Shown here: positions 5,352-6,292 of the stretch, one piece after another
How the letters are laid out: every line of letters starts with the position of its first letter
Numbering within the stretch: the stretch's first letter is position 1
Source of the DNA: Sulfobacillus thermosulfidooxidans
GTDB taxonomy: Bacteria; Bacillota; Sulfobacillia; Sulfobacillales; Sulfobacillaceae
Reading direction: 5' to 3'
DNA length: 64,000 nucleotides
Assembly: GCF_001280565.1 (NCBI RefSeq)
Contig: NZ_LGRO01000002.1
Span: 62,001 to 126,000, forward strand
Notes under the pieces: model-generated
Seen by the model: only the letters and a program-made list of their open reading frames with translations
Told to the model about the DNA's origin: nothing
Databases searched by the model: none
Made by a program: the position numbers and the translations under genes

Positions 5352-6005
5352 ATGGCATATTTGGATGATAAGATTCGTGGCCAAGTCAGCCAATTTTTTC
5401 AAGACCTTAAGGATTCAGTAACCATCCAGATTTATCCCGGTCCGAACGGTGAATTGTCTCAAGTTTTCATCGATCTCGCCAATGAAGTTGCTGACCTTTC
5501 TGATCTTGTCATGGTGACCCAAACCACGGAAGTGCCAGCCTTAGAACCTGGCCATCCTGGCGAAGAAACCATTTCCGGGCCCATTGCCAATTTGCTGGAC
5601 AACAATGGGAATCCCACCGGAATCCGCTTCGTTGGCATTCCGAGCGGGCACGAATTTGGCGCATTTCTAGAAGACATCAAAGCTGTCTCAACCCACCAGG
5701 TTGCACTCAGCGACAAAGCTAAGGAAGCACTGGCCCAAATTAAAGAACCTGTGCATATCCAAGTATTTACGACCCCTACGTGACCATATTGTCCCCGGGC
5801 TGTACGCCTGGCACATGATATGGCATTACAATCTCCGCATATTATTGCGGACATGGTCGACGCGAGTGAATTTCCGGATCTCGCCGGGAAGTACAACGTT
5901 TATGGCGTACCTAAATCCGTCGTCAATGGGAAATTAGACGTGACGGGTGCCGTACCTGAAAACCAGTTGCTAAAAATCGTCCTGGATTCCGTTGGACAAT
6001 CATAA
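5352..6005 (+). CDS. PDO-type glutaredoxin/thioredoxin-fold protein with in-frame UGA at the first redox cysteine (putative selenoprotein)
   Basis: One frame of 218 codons runs from ATG 5352 (AAAGGAGGTGA upstream) to TAA 6003-6005, interrupted only by TGA at 5781-5783 (codon 144). Read as Sec or Cys, the site becomes TPT-U-PYC-PRAVRLAHDMA. This matches the CPYC redox centre of two-domain protein disulfide oxidoreductases, followed by the cis-proline motif YGVPKSVVNG. The N-terminal thioredoxin half has lost its own CxxC, and Cys147 is the only other cysteine in the protein. Homology continues smoothly across the UGA, as expected for recoding rather than decay. The strand after the UGA folds into a SECIS-like hairpin. 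The likely role is thiol-disulfide or peroxide chemistry in the cytosol. A true nonsense mutation is the main alternative. Confidence 0.8.
5784..5823 (+). promoter_or_regulatory. Putative bacterial SECIS hairpin directly after the UGA
   Basis: Immediately 3' of the UGA, CCGGGC (5795-5800) pairs with GCCTGG (5806-5811), five Watson-Crick pairs and one G-U, around a five-base loop TGTAC. An outer stem CCATAT...ATATGG (5784-5789 with 5818-5823), extended by TGT/ACA, closes it. The apical loop begins 17 bases after the UGA and has G as its second base, which fits the known layout of SelB-binding bacterial SECIS elements. Paired by eye; a folding calculation has not been done. Confidence 0.65.
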
Positions 6006-6021
6006 AGCAACGCACGACGTT

Positions 6022-6057
6022 AAAAAGAGCAAGGCCCTCGCTGCCTTGCTCTTTTTT
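6022..6057. terminator. Bidirectional intrinsic terminator between the two UGA redoxin genes
   Basis: AAGAGCAAGG...CCTTGCTCTT stem flanked by an A-run on one side and a T-run on the other, so it works in both directions. It ends transcription of the PDO-type gene on the plus strand and of the convergent small glutaredoxin, whose TAA lies inside it. Confidence 0.85.
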
Positions 6058-6292
6058 ATTCCCGAACCCCTAAGGTTCGTGCTAATTTCGGTCGATTAAA
6101 GCCTACAATAACGGTTCCATTGACAATGATCACCGGCACGCCGGTTTGTCCGGATTTGCGTTGCAGTTCCTGAGCCGCTTGGGGACTTTTCGAAACATCA
6201 ATTTCTTTGAAAGGTACCTTGCGCTCTTGAAGAAACCGCTTAGCATTCCGGCAATGGACTCACGTCGGTGTGGTATAAATCACAACCGCCAC
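6056..6292 (-). CDS. Small NrdH/YruB-like glutaredoxin with in-frame UGA at the first redox cysteine (putative selenoprotein)
   Basis: Minus-strand frame of 79 codons from GTG 6292 (GGGGGTG upstream) to TAA 6058-6056, containing one TGA at 6262-6260 (codon 11). The translation MAVVIYTTPT-U-VHCRNAKRFLQ, with KEIDVSKSP and a cis-proline segment TGVPVIIVNGTVIVGF, covers an entire classical glutaredoxin fold, and the UGA replaces the nucleophilic cysteine of CxxC. Cys14 is the only cysteine. Conventional gene callers would miss this gene or truncate it. It probably reduces protein or low-molecular-weight disulfides. A hairpin after this UGA is weaker (GCCG/CGGT at 6252-6249 and 6238-6235, loop starting with G). 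The alternative is a nonsense mutation, but the same lesion occurs next door. Confidence 0.8.

Follow-up and report, generated by a model that had tools for sequence, protein, structure and literature searches.

Sec-containing glutaredoxins with a UxxC motif (PF00462) and the TIGR02187 proteins are both listed selenoprotein families (PMC13188914, PMC9312934). An example of the former is the glutaredoxin (Grx) of Clostridium oremlandii, for which PMC13188914 cites Kim et al. 2011. Selenocysteine (Sec) has also been mentioned in connection with Sulfobacillus: a Sec-containing formate dehydrogenase is reported from Sulfobacillus genomes (PMC4378227), and proteomics of S. thermotolerans names a peroxiredoxin with Sec (PMC7409299). 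In the passages covered from papers on both Sulfobacillus and selenocysteine, no description of the glutaredoxin gene considered here was found.

We analysed a pair of convergent genes with in-frame UGA codons in a stretch of 64,000 nucleotides from Sulfobacillus thermosulfidooxidans, the whole of which is called the window below. The genome that contains it (G000) has a size of 3.83 Mb. The following features were assigned, with the evidence in parentheses:

5352-6005, plus strand: convergent selenocysteine-type protein disulfide oxidoreductase (PDO) gene, 217 residues (TIGR02187, 202.1 bits, cut-off 185)
5781-5783, plus strand: in-frame UGA of the PDO gene, first position of the C-terminal UPYC motif
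5795-5811, plus strand: SECIS-type hairpin of the PDO gene, stem CCGGGC/GCCUGG, loop UGUAC (folding and conservation)
6022-6056: probable bidirectional terminator separating the two convergent genes, AAAAAGAGCAAGGC ... GCCTTGCTCTTTTT (read from the sequence)
6056-6292, minus strand: predicted selenocysteine-type glutaredoxin gene (UxxC), 78 residues, GTG start (UGA translated as a residue; PF00462, NF041212, predicted fold)
6234-6248, minus strand: candidate SECIS stem-loop of the glutaredoxin gene, at +12 to +26 after the UGA (fixed-register pairing test)
6260-6262, minus strand: in-frame UGA, codon 11, predicted to encode Sec as the catalytic nucleophile (conservation, alternation with Cys)

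Read from 6292 to 6056 with UGA as a residue (U), the glutaredoxin frame is translated as VAVVIYTTPTUVHCRNAKRFLQERKVPFKEIDVSKSPQAAQELQRKSGQTGVPVIIVNGTVIVGFNRPKLARTLGVRE, followed by a stop codon. It contains a single UGA, codon 11, which opens the active-site motif UxxC. The translation matches the whole length of the PF00462 profile (6.7e-22, 77.9 bits, cut-off 22.9), which confirms the 78-residue, UGA-containing minus-strand frame with a GTG start proposed by the initial annotation. As was also claimed there, the gene escapes ordinary gene finding; the frame is missing from the list of standard open reading frames of the window.

The highest-scoring profile is TIGR02196 (GlrX_YruB, 85.2 bits, 3.3e-24), just under its curated cut-off of 88.55; this profile matches all 23 members scanned. 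The Uxx_star profile NF041212 is passed with 72.6 bits at a cut-off of 66, and the scores for Uxx-star subfamilies 1, 2 and 3 (NF041114, NF041211, NF047338) are all under the cut-off. The NrdH profile TIGR02194 yields 58.0 bits, under its cut-off of 85.75. Judged by these profile scores, the protein is nearer to the YruB and Uxx-star glutaredoxins than to NrdH, which refines the original description of it as NrdH/YruB-like. Close relatives of it are found in Sulfobacillus records. The predicted structure has a glutaredoxin fold (mean pLDDT 89.7) with the elements E3-7 H12-23 E29-32 H37-47 E54-57 E60-63 H67-74. In this thioredoxin-like model residue 11 immediately precedes helix 1, the classic position at the helix-1 N-terminus.

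The neighbouring plus-strand gene, in which a UGA had likewise been noticed, also proved to be real. It encodes a PDO, and its UGA occupies the site homologous to that of the glutaredoxin. Between the genes lies a long inverted repeat, which is perfect, contains A and T tracts and overlaps the glutaredoxin stop codon; a consensus terminator scan picks up part of it, at 6042-6028 on the minus strand. The two genes sit side by side in convergent orientation in the window genome and in G013, G015, G016, G017, G018, G019, G029, G030 and G031. They lie near each other, sometimes on one strand, in several more genomes, for example G020, G021, G022, G028, G003 and G004. A shared pathway of the two proteins is plausible. 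A bolder suggestion, which we make tentatively and consider less likely than not, is that the two Sec proteins work as a single relay in Sulfobacillus that reduces disulfides in dependence on selenium, and that both switch to Cys jointly upon loss of the Sec system.

Three further PDO paralogs were observed in the window genome. Two of them, L165 (G000:C1:1467164-1467799) and L167 (G000:C1:1246881-1247477), have in-frame UGA codons in the motifs TPT-U-PHC and SPT-U-TRC, respectively, with the same hairpin spacing as in the PDO of the window. The other, L166, has Cys (TPT-C-RWC).

The window genome contains all components expected of a bacterium with selenoprotein genes: SelA (557 bits), SelB (361 bits), SelD (362 bits) and one tRNA-Sec with the anticodon UCA (64.5 bits). 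When all RF00005 tRNA matches were checked with ARAGORN, the UCA anticodon was limited to this tRNA-Sec. The absence of a tRNA for Sec or UGA, which the initial annotation had considered as a potential argument against recoding, is therefore not what is seen. The selD gene itself (L017, G000:C1:2149778-2150713) also contains an in-frame UGA (SGUGCK), with a strong hairpin (-18.5 kcal/mol) after it.

Two other groups of observations were made on the side. There is an unusual tRNA-Cys(GCA) of 93 nt at L002:1501-1593 (G000:C1:2157494-2157582), with a long variable arm, a Sec-like body and U before CCA. It exceeds the tRNA-Sec cut-off (49.9 versus 47 bits) and resembles the selC* tRNA-Cys of Firmicutes (PMC7609411). 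L189 and L191 contain similar tRNAs, and the window genome has an ordinary tRNA-Cys(GCA) as well, at L128:1595-1669. Several genomes of the family (G024:C64, G008:C72, G025:C211 and others) also contain weaker matches to the glutaredoxin query, longer frames of approximately 260-330 residues with one in-frame UGA each; these are probably other selenoproteins.

Downstream of the PDO UGA, an 11-nt spacer leads to a SECIS-type hairpin, with a stem of 6 bp and a loop of 5 nt in which the second base is G. The region folds at -18.5 kcal/mol (z -2.78), and the upper stem is preserved in all 15 distinct segments, including changes from G-U to A-U and from G-C to G-U. The same spacing recurs in selD and in both of the further PDO paralogs with UGA.

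The situation with the glutaredoxin gene is less simple. The segment following the UGA in the window folds no better than chance (z +0.46 against dinucleotide shuffles), UGA orthologs have no advantage over Cys homologs in their folding z-scores, and RNAalifold over all UGA orthologs of the glutaredoxin finds almost no common structure. As the Cys-homolog control scored equally, minimum-free-energy folding and RNAalifold were dropped as evidence for this hairpin. However, in the register set by the hairpins in SelD and in the PDO copies, the UGA-type glutaredoxins formed on average 4.35 of 6 pairs, compared to 1.35-3.35 pairs in slid registers; this is support and not proof, because the choice of register followed inspection of the sequences and the orthologs share ancestry. 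Synonymous shuffles have 3.49 pairs (sd 0.20), and none of 1000 reached 4.35. Cys-type homologs in the same register have 2.43 pairs, below expectation. The check proposed at the outset, folding of the minus strand after 6260, thus gave a divided outcome: the free energy is not significant, but the fixed-register pairing in UGA orthologs, unlike that in Cys homologs, beats all synonymous shuffles. Together this supports a weak SECIS in the glutaredoxin gene. Some known bacterial selenoprotein genes deviate from the standard SECIS model (review PMC9312934).

The UGA is found at codon 11 in all 13 close orthologs of the glutaredoxin, the window included. Among 34 genomes of the host family, 32 have an ortholog, with UGA in 25 (for two of these, G023 and G026, the count rests on the stop tally, with the codon neighbourhood unread), Cys (TGC or TGT) in seven, and no other codon. 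The UGA-bearing genomes span several genera, and occurrence of UGA at the same codon in 25 of the 32 orthologs excludes chance. Outside the family, CxxC relatives from Clostridium, Spirochaetes, Cloacimonadota, archaea and others have Cys at the UGA position. With the UGA codon set aside, mean dN is 0.098 and dS exceeds 1; since dS is near saturation, the direction of the difference is meaningful, and not its size. By this comparison, strong purifying selection acts on the glutaredoxin codons, most of which lie downstream of the UGA.

Both genomes of genus g3, which are 96-97% complete, contain no match to SelA and no tRNA-Sec above the cut-offs. In both of them Cys replaces UGA in the glutaredoxin (L088, L090) and in the PDO (L118, L119); the PDO orthologs have either UGA or, in genomes lacking SelA, Cys. 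The five other genomes with a Cys glutaredoxin keep SelA and a UGA-bearing PDO. In G002, with the glutaredoxin UGA and a tRNA-Sec(UCA), no SelA match was found; an assembly gap is likely, as its congener G001 has SelA. In six UGA-bearing drafts (G016, G027, G029 and G031, more than 90% complete, and G014 and G023, which are not) no tRNA-Sec was recovered among the 90 candidates scored per genome, and given this limit we do not take it as true absence.

Two of the checks suggested initially, conservation of the UGA and its alternation with Cys, came out in favour of recoding, and no degraded copies, also anticipated there as a possible contrary sign, were found among the orthologs examined. The proposal that both genes are recoded is supported by the complete Sec machinery, the conservation of the UGA, its alternation with Cys only, and its replacement by Cys in both genes in genomes that lack SelA. 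From these sequence comparisons, the frame at 6292-6056 on the minus strand is almost certainly a selenoprotein gene and not a pseudogene, with UGA decoded as selenocysteine in the active-site motif.

We are highly confident that the product is a functional selenoprotein glutaredoxin, in which Sec would be inserted at codon 11 and Sec11 would serve as the nucleophile, and that the convergent PDO is made alike. Following the established pathway of bacteria, SelD would provide selenophosphate, SelA would convert Ser-tRNA-Sec(UCA) to Sec-tRNA-Sec, and SelB would bring the latter to the codon-11 UGA, guided by the hairpin just downstream. In the UxxC site Sec11 would attack disulfides and Cys14 would resolve them, as in characterised UxxC redoxins, so that this catalytic role is inferred by analogy. 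The PDO would be produced by the same Sec route.

Other readings of the codon fare worse. A suppressor tRNA-Cys(UCA) might decode it as cysteine, as proposed for the selC* tRNA-Cys of some deltaproteobacteria. The Sec-like long-arm tRNA-Cys at G000:C1:2157494 and the report of such tRNAs from Firmicutes lend this some appeal. However, the anticodon of that tRNA is GCA and not UCA, UCA belongs to tRNA-Sec alone among the tRNAs found, and SelA, SelB and SelD are all in place; this makes cysteine suppression very unlikely. Even lower, and in fact negligible, is the probability that UGA has become a sense codon genome-wide. The in-frame UGAs are the sole support for it, but UGA terminates nine of the 39 non-overlapping long open reading frames of the window, and the tRNA-Trp genes of the genome have CCA anticodons. 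A sequencing error or a decaying gene, with a Cys codon TGC or TGT turned into TGA, would take one base change, but this is equally close to being excluded by the persistence of the UGA across genera, the purifying selection and the lack of further disruptions. We therefore rejected cysteine suppression, reassignment and the pseudogene on the anticodon census, stop usage and UGA conservation, respectively.

The remaining possibility retains Sec insertion and sees the UGA mainly as a selenium-dependent switch, with little full-length protein made without selenium and the weak hairpin providing low-efficiency readthrough. The glutaredoxin hairpin is indeed weak beside that of the PDO. We consider this unlikely as the main role of the codon, although it is compatible with a functional Sec-containing glutaredoxin and does not exclude it.

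Standard gene callers drop or truncate the glutaredoxin gene and assign a wrong end to the PDO, and hence redox proteins of industrial bioleaching bacteria would be under-counted. The family forms a compact natural series, comprising UGA, Cys in genomes that retain the Sec system, and Cys in genomes lacking SelA. It is suitable for the study of selenocysteine gain and loss, and for testing the contribution of Sec in an acidophile.

The window PDO is above the cut-off of TIGR02187 (PDO_seleno_TRX, homolog of the AhpF N-terminal domain), with UxxC in its C-terminal half and no notable difference from this family. The glutaredoxin shares with the Grx of C. oremlandii the fold, Sec (here predicted) in the first position of a CxxC-type motif and the bacterial Sec system. 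It differs in that its sequence resembles YruB and Uxx-star proteins more than Grx3: the chain 4tr0 from PDB (glutaredoxin 3), which we take to be the C. oremlandii protein, is matched at 9.2e-07 only. It falls into the Uxx-star family NF041212 of Sec- or Cys-containing glutaredoxin-like proteins, but under the thresholds of the named subfamilies, and its best profile, GlrX_YruB, is narrowly missed by the curated standard. The Sulfobacillus glutaredoxin thus belongs to an already published type of selenoprotein, whereas the gene itself was previously unannotated.
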